Assembly: GCA_008933995.1 (NCBI GenBank) | Contig: WARS01000007.1 | Location: 10,778,623-10,842,622, forward strand | DNA: 64,000 bases | Direction of reading: 5' to 3' | From: Datnioides undecimradiatus | Lineage: Eukaryota > Chordata > Actinopteri > Lobotiformes > Datnioididae | In this document: positions 9,201 through 54,900 of the stretch, one piece after another | Layout of the letters: each line of letters begins with the position of its first letter | Position numbering within the stretch: the stretch's first letter is position 1 | Translations under genes and position numbers: made by a program | Notes under the pieces: model-generated | Told to the model about the DNA's origin: nothing | Databases searched by the model: none | Seen by the model: the letters and a program-made list of their open reading frames with translations, nothing else

Positions 9201-9441
9201 TTCACGAGCAGGAAGGAAACAGCAAAGGAGAGAGAAAAGGCCACTCCAGGGACCATAATAGTGAGAGCAGATAGAAAGAAGACAGGAAGCAGCTATCTCT
9301 CCATCTCCTCCATGGTGTTGTAGGCGTCTATGGGTCTGTCAGTCAATCAGGACGACAGGCAGACGCACTTACTCACCGGCTCTCTCTTGTCTCCTGCACG
9401 CGCTGATCACGCTGATGACTTTGCTGTGTGTGTGTCTACAG

Positions 9442-9523
9442 ATGGCAAACCTTGTGACATCGCTGTGCTGTGTAGTTCTGGCCGCGGTGGTGGTAGCCTA
9501 CGCTCAGAGACGCAGTCAGCTCG
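9442..9523 (+). CDS. cntfr: CNTFR first coding exon (signal peptide), ciliary neurotrophic factor receptor subunit alpha
   Basis: CNTFR is the GPI-anchored alpha receptor that binds CNTF-type cytokines and recruits LIFR and gp130 on neurons and muscle. This exon gives 27 codons plus one base. It begins MANLVTSLCCVVLAAV and ends VVVAYAQRRSQL, then G|GTGAGT. It is a typical secretion signal: short N-terminus, a Leu/Val/Ala core, and Ala-x-Ala-like AYAQ near the cleavage site. The layout MA...CC.VLAA...YAQR matches the start of mammalian CNTFR, including the YAQR after the core. The start ATG follows CTACAG (an acceptor-like sequence) immediately and has G at +4. The exon ends in phase 1, matching exon B at 47677, and the joined codon GTT gives Val. 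The upstream exon is not identified. Identification is by recall of the family and rests mainly on the two exons fitting together. Confidence 0.88.
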
Positions 9524-44100: not shown

Positions 44101-47100
44101 GTGTACTCCTAAGTGGATCTACTTGTGTTTTCAGCGTTACTATAAGGTGTATAATGCATGTGCTGGTATGTGTGCGGAATACTCATGGTAAGTGATGCAC
44201 CGCTGATGAATGCTGAAGTTTCAGGCGGAATTCAGCGGGTGCAGTTTCAAGGTGAGAGGGAGAGAGAGTGATGGAGAGGGGAGAGGGAGAGGTGAGAGAG
44301 ATATACAGGGGGAGCACGAGATAAGGGGGGAAGGAGACAGTGAGAATAACTTAGGGAAGGAGAGACGAGAGGTGGCAGCGAGTGGTCGCCACAGCCGAGA
44401 CAGTGGAGGCTGAACGTGAAGCCACACATGACACACATGTCTGAACCCTAATGGAAATGCTAACATTATCATCTGCCTTTAAGATTTCCTAGTTCCAATT
44501 ACACTACATTCAGCCTGAAGCTATTAAGTTAAAGGATGAGGTTTAAGATATTTAGTATTTGTCTTCTTGTCAACAAATCCCATAAAAAAGACTAAAAGCA
44601 ACAATGAATTGATTCTGACTAACACGCCTGTGCAAGCCAAAGCCTGATGAAGCTCGTTCCTCTGTGCCACAGAGCTCCACTGCTGTCCTATTGAAGTCCT
44701 AAAGGCCCCACATTATGGTGCCCTTAGATATCACATTGTACATATATATATATATACTATCACTGCAGATGATAAATAAATATCTGAATCTGAATAAATG
44801 TTTTAAATTGTGTTTTCTAGGCAGTGGTTAGGACCCTGTCAGTAAGCTTCAGGATGTGACAGGGTGCATCCAGCAGCAATATTGTTACTATGGTAACCTG
44901 GCTTTTTATTTTCCATTACTTATTTTTAATGGACCCCTGCCAGCCAATGAGAAACAAGTATTTACCATGACCAGGGGCTCACACGTGACTTGAGCGCCTG
45001 TTGTTTATCAATCTGGCTGTCAGAGACAGATCTGTCATCGTGTTGTAGTCGAACGTGAAAAGGCTTTGTGTCTGAATAATGAAACTGTTGTTAAGCAAAC
45101 TAAAAGAGTTGGATTCATGTGCACTTGGATTCATTTGGCTCACATTTTTGGAAAATACTGTGGATGATGTTGTATATAGTTAATGAAAACTCTCAAATGT
45201 AACAGGAGGGGTTAAAAGTTTATATAAAAGATGCAGTTTGTTAGCTTGAGAGTTAATAGTTACTGCTCAGAAGGTTGTGGCTGATCCTCATATTTAGTCC
45301 ATATTAGTCTAAAGTGTTTAAATGGGAATAAAGGAGCGAGAAGAGGAGAAGCACGGAAACTTGGAAGAAAAAGTGACGGAGTGAACTAAATGAAAGGAAC
45401 AGGAAGAGAAAGACGAGAGCAGCAGAACGTAAAGTTCAAAGCAGGATCTGCGTGGCGGCAGATGGCAGGGTGGGAAGTAAGGAGACATCAGTGTAGGACA
45501 ACAGATAACGATACAGAGTGAGAGAAGCGCAAGGGGGTTGACTTTGCTACAACAGGAAGAAGTTGGGAGGAGTGAAACACAGACGGGGGAGATGGGAGCA
45601 AAGGTTAGAAAGATGAATGGATGCTGGAAAGGACAGAGGAAGAGAAGGAACGATGCAGGCAAGGAGAGGATATGTGAGAAGAACGTGATGTGGCCAGCGG
45701 AGGGAGGGAAAGAAGGTCAAAGAGCAAGTGCAGAGGCTCAAGGACGTTCAATGGATGAAGCTGCAAAAAGGTCATTTCAGCAAAATATTTGGAAATGTGC
45801 CTATAACTGCTCCTTTCTGATGACATCATTGGAAGATGATTATGATTTCACTCTTGTACTCTGAGCACCTTAATGCCACCTAAGGGCGGTCAAAGGAATT
45901 TTTATTATTAAGTTATTAAGGTTTTGAATTACATCTTCTGTCACATTGATAAAATAGTAGATTCAATAACACTCTGCAGCACATCCTGTAAAATTATGAT
46001 TTCTCTTTTCAATACTTTGCACGAATGCTCAATGACTTTCTGTAAGAACATGCACAACATCTCTTCTTCCTCCGCTTTCACTTGTCACATAAAGCACAAG
46101 GGCAGCAGCAGCATCATCATCAAAGCTAACATCAAAGTCAAACTCTATGTTTCTTTTCGCCAAGATGGAAATAACTTTTTATGTAAATAAAGTCGCACAT
46201 CCATTCAAAGTCACTATGACAGAGGAGGAGATCAAAGGAAGTTGGCATTGCTTGCCACTCACATGCATATGCACACGCATTATTTGGACACAGGGAAACG
46301 AGGAGGGGCACGCATGGAGATAACTGGGATGGACAGAAGAGGGAGAAGAGACAGTGGTAAAGAAATAAAAAGTGAGGGATGGTGAGAGCTGGAGATGGAG
46401 AGCAGAGAGTTAGGCGCTGGGGAAAGTGGGGGTGGTGGTGGGGGGAGCAGGGATGGACAGGCAGGGAGGAAGATGGAGAGAGAACACACAGTGTCAGGGT
46501 AATGTAAATGGGGACTGGGACATTGTCCTATTGAATATAGATGGCTCCAGTACGGGACATGAAATATATATGAAACACAGGGCTGACATCTGTATCAGCT
46601 GTGTTAAGAGGCATGTCTGAGGGAGCCTGCTCATGTGAAAAACAGCAAAAAGAGAGGCATTGTAGTGAGAGGGAGAGAGGAGGCGAGCGGGGACTGACAG
46701 ACAAAGGCAAAGATGGAGAGAGAGAGAGAGACATCAGAGCAAGACAAGGATCTTGACAGCATTTGATCCCAGGCCGAGGGGGGGGGGGCACTTTTTTTTC
46801 TTCTTTTCTTCATTGACGAGGGCTTTTCTTTAAGATGGGGATCAATATTTTATTGTTGTTTCTTGTTGCGCTGTTGATCCGCAGTGTTTAAGTGTTAATC
46901 TGAGGTCTTCAGCCTACGTGGCCACGACAGTGCCCGTGGGACTTGTAAACAGAGTGGGGCCGCTAACACCGGTGTCCTGGCTAAAACCTCTCATCACGCC
47001 CATGCGTACCCTTTACCCCCTGAGGTCACGGTTCCTAGTATAAACCCGCTGACAAAGGCATTGGTGGTATCTTTATTTTAATATTAAAACTGTTTTTTGA

Positions 47101-47389
47101 CGATTAAAATAGCAGTTTTCCACGCTGCATCTTGGGTGAACCCATATCTGGTTCACTGCACAGGACAAAATGACCTTCTCTTCCCAATCATCACTCAGTG
47201 TGAAGGATTGGTAATACTCAGAAGAAATTAGATCAGAACTATTTATGAACTGTACAAAAGTGGTAAAATGTTCCCTTCCTTCCCCGCCACAACAGATCCG
47301 TGGAGTCGTGCGTAGGTGGACAGTAATAAAGAAGATTAAATTCAACTATGAGCCGAGTAATAACGTTTCCATTTCTCCATATTCAGTTT
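41134..47389. other. Intronic stretch without genes
   Basis: Non-coding. Includes GATTAATCGAGTC directly repeated near 41569-41592, a short (AT)n at 42944-42956, purine-rich tracts at 44230-44400, 45330-45750 and 46310-46490, and G8 with T8 near 46783-46798. Chance frames only. Confidence 0.65.
45330..45750. repeat. Purine-rich (GGAGAAG) tract
   Basis: About 420 bp of GA-dominated plus-strand DNA, for example GCGAGAAGAGGAGAAGCACG and AGGAAGAGAAAGACGAGAGC. The complementary strand gives long Ser/Pro/Leu chance frames. Confidence 0.7.
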
Positions 47390-47438
47390 ACCACATCAGT
47401 TGAAAACTGTTATCAAATAATAAATTCTCCCTTAGCTT

Positions 47439-47720
47439 CTGTCTGCTTCTTGTTGCTAGGAACCAGCATGATAGAATGAGCAGAAATACCCCCTCAAAGA
47501 ATATTTTGCTTGTTGTATATGCTGATATGATTAGAGAGCCTTTGATTTTGACTGTCTGCTTCCAGTTGCTAGGAGCCGGCGTGCACCAAGGGCGGTGATT
47601 TAACCGCACAGATATTTCACTTGTTATTAGCTGTTGATATCACCAACGCTTAATCTTTGCTTCTGTCTGTTTGCAGTTGCTAGGAACCAATACGAGCGAA
47701 TGGGCAGTGATGTCACCATG
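47439..47720 (+). repeat. Three tandem copies of the exon B splice-acceptor region (111-113 bp unit)
   Basis: CTGTCTG occurs at 47439, 47552 and 47663, and GTTGCTAGGA at 47452, 47565 and 47676, giving spacings of 113 and 111 bp. An ATATTT..CTTGTT segment also recurs between copies (47501 and 47612). Copy 3 is the real acceptor and start of exon B. Copy 2 keeps TGCTTCCAG before TTGCTAGG, and GGGCGGTGATTTAACC matches the exon's GGGCAGTGATGTCACC. Copy 1 has TGCTTCTTG, so the AG is lost, but its continuation reads ARNQHDRMSRNT beside the exon's ARNQYERMGSDVT. The repeated unit therefore contains both intron end and coding exon start. Confidence 0.85.
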
Positions 47721-47910
47721 CAGTGCGGCTCCCTGGACAGGGAGGCGTCGGTGTCGTGGAAGGTGAACGGGACGGACGTGAAGGCCCAGCACCGTCTAGA
47801 GGGTCCCAGGTTGATACTAACCGAAGTGGACCTAGGCCACAACGGGCTCTACAGCTGCTTTCAGAACCCGCATGGAGAGAGACGCGACACCATCTACCTC
47901 CACATCGGCA
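47677..47910 (+). CDS. cntfr: CNTFR second coding exon: N-terminal Ig-like C2 domain
   Basis: The 234-bp exon follows a strong acceptor (TCTTTGCTTCTGTCTGTTTGCAG, ending 47676) and ends at A|GTAAGT. Joined to the signal-peptide exon, the reading continues V-ARNQYERMGSDVTMQCG, then VSWKVNGTDVK, LTEVDLGHNGLYSCF, and ends HIG plus one base. This is an Ig-like C2 domain: the first Cys lies in VTMQCG, the core Trp in SWKVNGT, and the second Cys in the GLYSC strand F motif. Mammalian CNTFR has YERLGSDV, TWRVNGTD and LGHSGLYACF at the same points, which makes the assignment strong. NGT is a candidate N-glycosylation site shared with mammals. The next exon should start in phase 1 with the first cytokine-receptor domain, but I did not find it before 64000. 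The sequence directly upstream repeats this exon's boundary three times. Confidence 0.95.
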
Positions 47911-50900
47911 GTAAGTAGCCAGACAATCACCCGCCAAATATTATATCAAATAAGACCCGATGAATCTTTAATCATCCCAAAGGGGACACTTAGTCGCTGC
48001 AGCAGTATGGAGTGAAGGGAAAAAGCAGAATAAGAATGACCATTATGCAATTACAACTCAAAACAAAAAAAAAGTATGAATTAATGATGAGAAATTTTCT
48101 GAATTTTATCTTGTATGTATATGCAAGAGCAAAGAAGAAAACAGTATAGAAAAACTTTGACTTGCAGCTGTAATTAATGGTTGTGACTTCAAGCGTGGAG
48201 GAAATGTAATGTTTATGATTATCTTATGGCTCTTTTATGGCGCTCCTACTGGATGCTGGACCAGCTGTGCATGTCAGTTTGTTAGTTAGCAGTGGGGAAG
48301 ATATGTATTATTATATATTATACCTGTATACAGATTTGTAACTTTAAGTCACTGACTTTAGCAGGATCTTTTTGCTAAGATTGAAGAGTCGCAGAATGAC
48401 TTTGGCGCTGCTGTTGTTTTAGCGAACTGGATAGCTGTGGCGGCAGGTGCTGAGCTTGCTAGCTTAAGGCGGGTGTGCGTGTGATTGGCTGAAAGACGTG
48501 GGGTTGGTGACGACATAAAAGTCATGGAAAGTGACAAATCAGATAAAACGTATAAAATGAAATGTACATTATTGGGGAAACCACCAGTATGAAATAAAAG
48601 CACATCCTATGAAGCTGTCTTTGTGACAATAAGGAGATTAAAATATCATATTCATGATAAATGTGTTGAGTTTAACAATAATATAAAATTACTGTTTTAT
48701 TTATACATTTTCCCCTATTTATTCATGTAATTCTTCATATCCTCGTTCAATGTTATATATTATTAAATACCAAACACCTTGGGCCTCCATAATTAACATA
48801 TTTCTTTCTTCCTTTTTCTATATATTTATGTCACTTGCACAGCAAGACCGTGAAGCAAATTGACAATTTTAATAATCAGTCATAATATTTGGAGGGCTGT
48901 TTCATTTCAATTTTAAACGTGAATATAAAACTTGAATTGTCATGATAGCAGCCCTTACCGCAGAGCCCCGCCACCAGCTGACAAGCTCTTATGATGAGTT
49001 GTTAAAATGACATTTGGTCATTTTGCAGTTACGGCTATGCATTTTAATAATCATACAAAAGCTAAATGAGTGTCAATTTAATGGCGTGTCACAGCGGCCT
49101 GTAAGTTGGCAATGGCCTCCTTTGAGATCCATTATTCTGATGGTGAAGGTTTTATACACTGGGCCTGTGCATAATCAAAACAGTGTTGAGATAGGATAGA
49201 CTTGTAAATGACAAGGACCCCTGAGGATAATTGGAATGAAAACACCTTTGTTAAACGCAGTATTTAGCTAAAGTTAAATATCTTTATTCATGAGCTGATT
49301 CGCTTTTTAAACCACACACAAAATTAACAAAAAGTGCTCAAGGAGAGAAAACCTTTGAATATTTGGACTTTAATGCCCAGCACAGACTAATACAGCTATA
49401 TTACAGGTGACTACAACCTCAGTGTGTGTTATTACTATTAAAAACACGTTGTATATGTCTTTATCTGACATCCCCTAATACCTCAAAGTTATTGTGACAA
49501 CTGTTTTCTAATCCGCACCTGGGCCGCCGCCGGCTTTTCTCCTTCAGTTCGGCCGTTTGAATGCATCCGTCATGGCAGTAATGCTGCATGATTGACGGCT
49601 GCCCCTCTTATTCAACGGCGAATGAGTGTTTTATGATTGCTGCTTGAAAAAAAAAACAGCAACACTGAGCTGGCCAGCATCTCCTCACATTATGAGTGAT
49701 GCCTTTCCGTCTCCCTCCGTTCGAGCCCGCTGGTGGTATTAGAAACAGGCAGCATTTTAAAATTTCCACGCAGGAGTCGTACTGCAGCTGCTAGCCGGCC
49801 AGCAGGTGAAATTAGATATCGCTTTGGCATCAGTCATGGCAGGCCACTTCAAAACGGTGCCAAAAGTGACACAGTTTGATACACTGCAGGAGAAAAACCT
49901 TGATTCATCACTCCCATGGCTTTGAAAAATATGAGCTAATGCCAGTTTTCTTCTTTTTTCACACTGTTATATTACAGAGGGTCCACCTTAAGGTTGAAAT
50001 CAGGGGATAGCAGAGTGAAAGAAAAAGCAAAATGCTCCTGCTGCTGCGGCTGTGATGTGTCAAAATGTTACAACGGCAGATTTTTTTTCTGCGAATCTGA
50101 CACACAGCACGTATATACAAAGACATGGTCCAATTTAAGCCGGTTTAATTAAAAAATCAAACCAGAATCATCACCTTTTGGTCTCCATCAGCTGAAAAGG
50201 AAACCACAACCGGCCTGATGCCATCCACCTGTCAATAGGAGCGATAGAGAGATGAGTGCCCATCCCACACCTGTCGAGATCTCGTTTCAGGCTGATGTTA
50301 AACGCAACATTTCCACACAAATGTTTGATGAATGAGACTGTACAGCAGTGTGACAGTTTGGTTAATCATATCGGCAATGATGAATTACTTAATGCTGAAA
50401 TAATACTGAATTAATGAGAGTTTTCTGTTATGCGAGATCGTGTCAGCAGGGTGAATGATGCAATGCATAAACAGACCAGAGAGAGTGAGTGCATGCGTTT
50501 GTGTGTGCGTGTGTATCTGTGTATGTATACCCCGTGTGCAAGCAAGTGCACGTGTGTGCATACATTTCTTTTCACCAGGGGTAATTTGCTGCATCATAAT
50601 ACACACTTTGGTGGTCTCTAACTCTTTGTGTGTGTGTGCGAAACAGTTACATTGTTTAACTATTCATCAGGGGTCAATTACAAGCTTGTAAGAACAATAC
50701 CTTAGTGGTCTTCTGGTTGTGAATATAATTACCTTGATAACAGTTGGTGATTTTATGACATGTTTGAGGCACACGCTGGGGCCGCATCGACTCTAACTCT
50801 GCTCTCCAAACTACAGAAACTCAGATCGCCATCTCACATCCTTCCTCTTTGCCTCTCACTCTCTCCCTAATTGTCTTTTTACAATCTGCTCTTTGTCTGT

Positions 50901-53826: not shown

Positions 53827-54861
53827 GAACACTCCATCCAATGGGGCCATCTTTCTGATGTATTCCCGGATCTTGGATGTTTCATCCTGAATAGTGGCCC
53901 TGACGCTCACCAGTCCTCTGTCCCCTTCCTTTCACTTAGTGTACAGTCTCTGGGTACTGGACTTGGGGTGGAACCCTCCATGCATGGTAAGGAGCTTTCG
54001 TGTCTTGATATCTGTGGTCTGTACTTCATCCTTTGGCCAATTTATTATCCCAGCAGGGTATCTGATTACTGGCAAGGCATAGCTGTTTATTGCCTGGACC
54101 TTGTTCTTGCCATTGAGCTGACTTTTCAGGACCTGCCTTACTCGTTGGAGGTATTTGGCTGTGACTGCTTCCCTTGTGGCCTTCTCATGGTTGCCATGTG
54201 CCTGTGGTATACCCAGGTATTTGTAGCTCTCCTCAATGTCTGCTATTCTGCCCTCTGGTAGTGTAATCCCCACTCTCTGGACTACCTTGCCTCTCTTTGT
54301 TATCATTCGTCCACACCTCTCCAGTCCGAATGACATTCCTATGTCATTGCTGTAGATCCTGGTTGTGTGTATCAGTGAGTCGATGTCCCACTCACTCTTG
54401 GCATACAGCTTGATGTCATCCATGTAGAGTAGGTGGCTTATTGTGGTCCCATTCCTGAGTCGGTAGCCATAGCCAGTCTTTGTTATTATTTGGCTGAGGG
54501 GGTTCAGGCCTATGCAGAACAGTAGTGGGGACAGGGCATCTCCTTGGTATATCCTGCATTTGATGGAGACTTTGGCAATTGGTTTGAAGTTGGCCTCCAG
54601 GGTAGTTCTCCACATCGAGTTTGTTATGAATGTCCGTAGAGTTGTGTTGATGTCATACATCTCCAGGCATTCCAGGATCCAGGAGTGTGGCATTGAGTCG
54701 TAGGCTTTCTTGTAATCAATCCAGGCAGTGCACAGGTTAGTTTGTCTGGTCTTGCAGTCCTGGGCGACCGTTCTATCTACCAGTAGTTGGTGTTTGGCTC
54801 CTCTGGTATTTCTACCAATGCCATTCTGTGCTTTGCTCATGTATTGATCCATGTGGCCGCT
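53827..54861 (-). pseudogene. R4/Dong-like LINE reverse-transcriptase fragment
   Basis: A long minus-strand frame encodes a non-LTR reverse transcriptase. AWIDYKKAYDSMPHSW is motif A with the first catalytic Asp, QGDALSPLLFCIGLNPLSQI is motif B, HLLYMDDIKLYAKSE is motif C with the YMDD box (54415-54426), and SYKYLGI follows as the next conserved block. The frame is interrupted by TGA at 53932-53934 inside LYTK*KEG; relatives as I recall them have Arg here, so a CGA-to-TGA change is likely. Reading then resumes GLVSVRATIQDETSKIREYI to MAPLDGVF at about 53827 and stops matching. The N-terminal domain and C-terminal endonuclease are missing. I assign the R4/Dong group, with R2-like as the alternative. 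Inactive. Confidence 0.85.
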
Positions 54862-54900
54862 ATATATATATATATATAAAAGCGGCCACATGGATCAATA
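54842..54900. repeat. Perfect 20-bp inverted repeat with (AT)n loop at the LINE edge
   Basis: The arm TATTGATCCATGTGGCCGCT (54842-54861) and its exact complement at 54881-54900 flank a 19-bp AT-only spacer (54862-54880). The left arm is part of the LINE coding sequence (minus strand SGHMDQY); the right arm is the same stretch inverted. The structure could extrude as a hairpin. Confidence 0.97.

Follow-up and report, generated by a model that had tools for sequence, protein, structure and literature searches.

Known arrangements of neighbouring splice acceptors include NAGNAG and other close tandem acceptors. In addition, the 3' end of an intron can be multiplied together with exon sequence. 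In a human case, a tandem duplication at BRCA1 intron 9 and exon 10 comprises 395 nt of the intron end and 1617 nt of the exon start and leads to a premature stop, and the cDNA, according to the available part of the report, contains the entire duplicated sequence with the intron part included (PMC11839443). Furthermore, tandem exon duplication is found together with mutually exclusive splicing, for example of U2AF1 exons Ab/3 (PMC5224494; PMC9741552), intron gain via duplicated proto-splice sites has been described (PMC2891723), and SRRM4-type neuronal exons feature a UGC before the exon (PMC5247714), as far as the accessible portions of these papers tell. Concerning the gene treated here, zebrafish cntfr appears in the accessible portion of PMC1963337, and no duplicated acceptors in CNTFR were described among the literature matches listed, which comprised titles and abstract openings from searches that in part named CNTFR.

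The present analysis confirms that the acceptor and start region of the CNTFR Ig exon of Datnioides undecimradiatus is repeated in three copies. The array lies in a 64-kb window, i.e. the whole stretch of DNA that was analysed (64,000 nt), and its features are given below, with slashes marking exon-intron boundaries and with splice scores that derive from an approximate human matrix not fitted to fish.

9442 to 9523, + strand: presumed CNTFR signal-peptide coding sequence, from the ATG at 9442 to the donor TCG/GTGAGT (donor score 8.78); translation MANLVTSLCCVVLAAVVVAYAQRRSQL
47431 to 47488, + strand: copy 1, an acceptor region without AG followed by a copy of the exon start (ARNQHDRMSRNT); 53-nt match of 79% to 47655-47707 of copy 3, as given by the repeat finder
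47500 to 47611, + strand: copy 2, with intron body, an acceptor ending at 47565 and a copy of the exon start with an early stop; from the loose-scoring alignment to copy 3
47566 to 47594, + strand: hypothetical 29-nt microexon, from the copy 2 acceptor to the donor-like site GCG/GTGATT; predicted from sequence
47612 to 47676, + strand: copy 3, the intron end with the presumably used acceptor TTTGCAG/TTGCTAGG (acceptor score 6.66)
47677 to 47910, + strand: CNTFR Ig-domain exon of 234 nt with the donor GCA/GTAAGT (donor score 6.22); best phmmer E 1.1e-18

Comparison with described systems

The array resembles the BRCA1 duplication in that intron end and exon start are arranged in tandem, the acceptor is duplicated and a premature stop ensues. 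However, the BRCA1 case, as outlined in the available part of the report, concerns one fresh extra copy of 2012 nt, which is the disease variant of one patient and whose upstream copy forms part of the spliced mRNA (PMC11839443), whereas the CNTFR locus holds two short, strongly diverged and apparently old extra copies, with the 3'-most copy in frame. U2AF1-type duplications likewise involve an upstream intron end that is duplicated along with the exon and acceptors that later diverge, judging from the accessible portions of the respective papers (PMC5224494; PMC9741552), but at CNTFR the first 40-odd exon nt were copied without the donor of the exon, and the translated upstream routes lead to stops. 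With intron gain from proto-splice sites, as far as described in the accessible text (PMC2891723), the array shares a local duplication that doubles a splice signal and a copied segment that is intronic and contains stops; unlike intron gain, it multiplies the 3' end of an existing intron and probably forms no new one.

A likeness to SRRM4-type exons is given by the TGC at -9 to -7 before the exon-like start of copy 2 and by the candidate 29-nt exon, although the latter is predicted and would shift the frame; moreover, the motif is non-discriminating, because copy 3 also has a TGC adjoining its AG. Finally, a distance of 7 nt separates CAG from TAG within copies 2 and 3, in the manner of NAGNAG-type acceptors, but the main copies at CNTFR are 111-113 nt apart and stem from duplication of a segment.

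CNTFR exons in the window

The assignment of the locus to CNTFR, made in the earlier note, was borne out by phmmer, in which the Ig exon (47677-47910) matched solved CNTFR chains, presumably human, with E 1.1e-18, as compared with a weaker match to contactin-2 (E 7.2e-11). Pfam Ig models attained E 1.2e-05 or weaker on this exon, which is below their curated cut-offs. In a tblastn search with a human CNTFR sequence, the Ig exon was the sole credible match in the window, the others having E 2.2 and 4.9. The stretch 9442-9523, for which the acceptor score at 9441 amounts to 5.7, is presumed from its frame and resemblance, rather than from a database match, to be the signal-peptide exon of CNTFR; when joined to the Ig exon it is in frame and reads ...YAQRRSQLVARNQYERMGSDVTMQCG.... 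The donor at 9523 and the Ig exon are separated by a 38-kb intron, presumably without a further exon between this donor and the array, and the downstream exons encoding the fibronectin-type part of the cytokine receptor may be located outside the window. On the - strand, 3' of the Ig exon, a 320-aa open frame (53932-54894) matches RVT_1 (reverse transcriptase; E 5.4e-18) and is probably part of a retrotransposon.

Layout and statistics of the array

The repeat finder placed copies of a 32-nt core at 47439-47470, 47552-47583 and 47663-47694, i.e. at spacings of 113 and 111 nt, with identities to copy 1 of 84% for copy 2 and 78% for copy 3, and the copies end about 40-50 nt into exon sequence. 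Three occurrences of the word GTTGCTAGGA are present on the + strand of the 64-kb window, all within the array, and none on the - strand; on the + strand this word is also the sole complex 10-mer with three occurrences within 400 nt at spacings of at least 50 nt. Several details that had been read from the letters beforehand proved accurate: copy 2, credited with two or three changes, differs from GGGCAGTGATGTCACC at 3 of 16 positions, copy 1 has indeed lost its AG, in the place of which stands TG, and the genuine exon boundary is that of copy 3 at 47676/47677, the sole copy that continues into the whole Ig exon. Copy 3 alone does so, and it shares QYER.GSDVT with the solved CNTFR chains, from which we infer, as we do for the age of the event below, that the exon start was copied upstream, in agreement with the direction originally proposed.

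Since copies 2 and 3 comprise an intron end as well as an exon start, the array represents a tandem duplication of an intron-exon junction. It does not represent a tandem exon duplication, as the donor of the exon was not copied; among the 15 GTs listed for 47440-47720, none constitutes a donor resembling GCA/GTAAGT.

The pairwise alignment that the earlier note had suggested was carried out on disjoint segments, and for all three pairs and both scorings the observed score exceeded that of every one of 3000 dinucleotide shuffles. With pairs drawn at random from the big intron, it was reached in 7 of 2960 (copies 1 and 2), 3 of 2950 (1 and 3) and 8 of 2948 cases (2 and 3) with strict scoring, and in 8 of 2948, 1 of 2951 and 0 of 2967 cases, respectively, with loose scoring, shuffles and random pairs alike ignoring the position of the copies at an exon boundary and their even spacing. 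Tandem Repeats Finder, applied to 47000-48200 with loose weights, reported 47431-47689 with a period of 111, 2.3 copies, 67% matches, 8% indels and a score of 296, and with strict weights it did not report the array. When the window was scanned for direct repeats without gaps at offsets of 60-400, 8 clusters emerged for 32 nt and 3 for 53 nt, among which the array was the sole cluster not of the CA/GT type, each cluster being judged by its best member listed.

An assembly artefact or a chance similarity is a most improbable source of the array. It could draw on the flank of copy 1, the likeness of which is at chance level, and on the up to 8 of about 2950 intron pairs that reach the observed scores, but the core of the other copies differs from that of copy 1 by 16% and 22%, unlike assembly duplicates, and the shuffle tests, all six of which gave 0 of 3000, leave boundary position and even spacing uncounted. 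Just as little credence is due to a dispersed repeat or mobile element with an acceptor-like end that inserted several times into the intron: the repetition itself, and nothing more, speaks for such an element, whereas the copies contain CNTFR coding sequence and no further credible copy was detected in the 64-kb window (best E outside the array 0.53 with the array and 0.41 with copy 2 as query).

Uneven homology of the flanks and probable age of the duplication

With loose scoring, 47501-47605 of copy 2 aligned to 47612-47717 of copy 3 over about 105 nt including intron, and with strict scoring the match spans just 47540-47577 and 47655-47688 (34-38 nt). The score of the intron body in this pair was reached by 2 of 5000 shuffles and 15 of 5000 intron pairs; the intron bodies of copies 2 and 3 are thus related, which implies that intron and exon sequence were duplicated together. 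On the contrary, the left (intron) flank of copy 1 is no more alike than expected by chance, its score being reached by 1963 of 5000 shuffles against copy 2 and by 3643 of 5000 against copy 3 in a test with free end gaps, in which the alignment of copies 1 and 2 is not constrained to their register. Intron homology of copy 1 is recognisable for about 8 nt 5' of CTGTCTG and no further. The exon match past GTTGCTAGGA is weak on its own, as it is reached by 528 (copies 1 and 3), 1467 (2 and 3) and 4025 (1 and 2) of 5000 shuffles. Likeness outside the core, on which the earlier note had made the repeat depend, is therefore present in the intron body of copies 2 and 3 but absent from the left flank of copy 1, with weak exon flanks. 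Owing to this uneven homology, the three units of 111-113 bp claimed at the outset are supported in full for copies 2 and 3, but for copy 1 in part, namely for about 8 nt of intron flank, the core and the exon start. The dissimilar left flank of copy 1 requires that this flank was subsequently deleted or replaced, or that the event was of greater complexity; a remnant of the copy 2/3 intron body 5' of copy 1 was sought in 45000-47438, where no credible match emerged (best E 0.2).

The copied exon part shows Kimura distances of 0.69-0.77 (all three pairs) and the intron body of copies 2 and 3 one of 0.47, which argues for an old duplication and against a recent assembly error. For the intron part of copy 1, where homology is not recognisable, forced alignment gives 1.15-1.17.

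We consider it probable that the array arose by old local duplication, with the 3'-most acceptor being used and the upstream copies representing decaying leftovers. In one old local duplication, or in two in succession, the 3' end of the 38-kb intron together with the initial 40-odd nt of the adjoining Ig exon would have been copied upstream, and splicing from 9523 would lead mainly to 47677 in copy 3. Copy 1 would be decaying, its AG being lost, while copy 2 would still be acceptor-like, so that a minor mis-splice may result in an early stop and presumably in nonsense-mediated decay. What this explanation does not predict is the left flank of copy 1: plain tandem duplication would give a shared flank, but that of copy 1 is unlike copies 2 and 3.

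Splice signals and reading frames

By the same approximate human matrix, the copy 2 acceptor (ending at 47565) scores 7.47, the 97.4th percentile of 4143 AGs in the window, against 6.66 (96.2nd percentile) for the genuine acceptor at 47676, in line with its initial description as plausible. Nevertheless, this score is weak evidence, because a score of 7.47 or more is attained by 107 of the 4143 AGs of the window and, inside the intron, by 56 of 2536. In copy 1, a TAG 7 nt 3' of the lost AG and ending at 47459 scores 7.55 (97.5th percentile), the top score among the listed AGs of the array. An AG that ends at 47386, and thus outside the copies, reaches 6.14. YTNAY branch-point-like words are found 5' of copies 2 and 3. 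Every copy features a TTGCTAG, the AG of which lies 7 nt past the main acceptor position (47459, 47572 and 47683).

The donor-like GCG/GTGATT of copy 2 at 47595 scores 5.61, the 95.4th percentile of 3976 GTs (genuine exon donor 6.22), and might delimit a new intron together with the acceptor at 47676. At the matching position, the genuine exon has GCA/GTGATG with a score of 1.62. The donor-like site was rejected as a remarkable feature, about 5% of GTs scoring equally and 15 GTs being present in the listed stretch.

A recursive splice site consists of an acceptor directly followed by a donor (AG/GT). No such site was found in the array, where TTGCTAGG comes after the CAG acceptors and GA after the TAGs. 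Moreover, RNA structure in 47430-47720 did not surpass that of shuffles (z -1.01), 23 of 200 of which did equally well, and Rfam returned nothing at gathering score in the window.

Among the routes translated, 47677 is the sole one giving an intact reading frame. As had been predicted, splicing from 9523 to 47566 yields VARSRRAPRAVI and then a stop, which falls after 39 residues; splicing to 47573 or to 47460 (the TAG of copy 1) leads to a stop after 35 and 33 residues, respectively, while inclusion of the 29-nt microexon leads to a frameshift and to a stop after 66 residues. The upstream routes translated are hence unproductive, since all end in early stops. The premature stop of a poison splice choice is found with 47566, and mutually exclusive splicing, in which the frame is kept in each choice, does not apply, as all four upstream routes stop early.

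These outcomes bear on an unlikely alternative, in which copy 2, and perhaps the TAG of copy 1, would be a selected decoy competing with 47677 and directing CNTFR RNA to decay in some tissues or stages. Such a poison-acceptor switch would be in keeping with the early stops of both upstream routes and with a copy 2 acceptor that outscores the genuine one (7.47 vs 6.66), but the AG of copy 1 is gone, 107 of 4143 AGs equal or exceed the copy 2 score, even the AG at 47386 attains 6.14, and the scoring matrix is an approximate human one rather than one for fish. Mere decay of the upstream copies is also called into question by BRCA1, where the duplicated intron part was contained in the cDNA, as stated in the available part of the report (PMC11839443). 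An upstream copied acceptor is thus usable, which speaks for leakage or more at the CNTFR array.

Divergence of the acceptor core

In all three pairs, Kimura distances are 0.13-0.18 in a 25-nt core, compared with 0.69-0.77 in the exon part next to it. Between copies 1 and 2, neither of which is needed for the protein, 22 of 25 core positions agree compared with 17 of 32 in the rest of the copied exon sequence (one-sided Fisher p 0.005; Kimura 0.13 vs 0.74), and the same comparison gives p 0.029 for copies 1 and 3 and p 0.013 for copies 2 and 3, the core having been delimited post hoc, once the alignment had been seen. Invariant columns of the three-way alignment are clustered (23 of 29, matched in 6 of 20000 permutations; the longest run, of 10, in 209 of 20000) in a test that takes in the unrelated left flank of copy 1. 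Pairwise window permutations are weaker, with 327 (copies 1 and 2), 6622 (1 and 3) and 1120 (2 and 3) of 20000.

A core that is better kept than its flanks even between copies 1 and 2, which have no protein role, is at odds with the decaying-leftover explanation, as pure decay predicts otherwise. For the selected decoy, on the other hand, this difference (22 of 25 vs 17 of 32) and the clustered invariant columns are favourable, but the post hoc choice of the core, the weaker pairwise permutations and the unrelated flank within the three-way test detract from them. The slower divergence of the core may thus be taken as a thin hint of constraint on the decoy acceptors. A more elaborate version, to which we assign a low probability, holds that the acceptor array is kept as a poison-splicing dial of CNTFR, in which the 29-nt microexon and the shifted TAG would matter while the rest decays, and which would determine how much receptor is made, perhaps in neurons. 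Gene conversion between copies, holding the core alike without function, appears decidedly improbable: the low distances of the core in all pairs, vis-à-vis 0.69-0.77 next to it, would fit, but tracts of about 25 nt would be very short for gene conversion.

Implications

Taken together, the CNTFR array is likely to be another case of the known junction duplication, most probably a decaying fossil. If decay is all there is to it, the array would be a tidy but minor fossil of gene-structure change. Duplication of a junction alone creates decoy acceptors in one step, and an old, diverged three-copy array with a usable-looking decoy would allow decay to be tested against retention for the tuning of expression.
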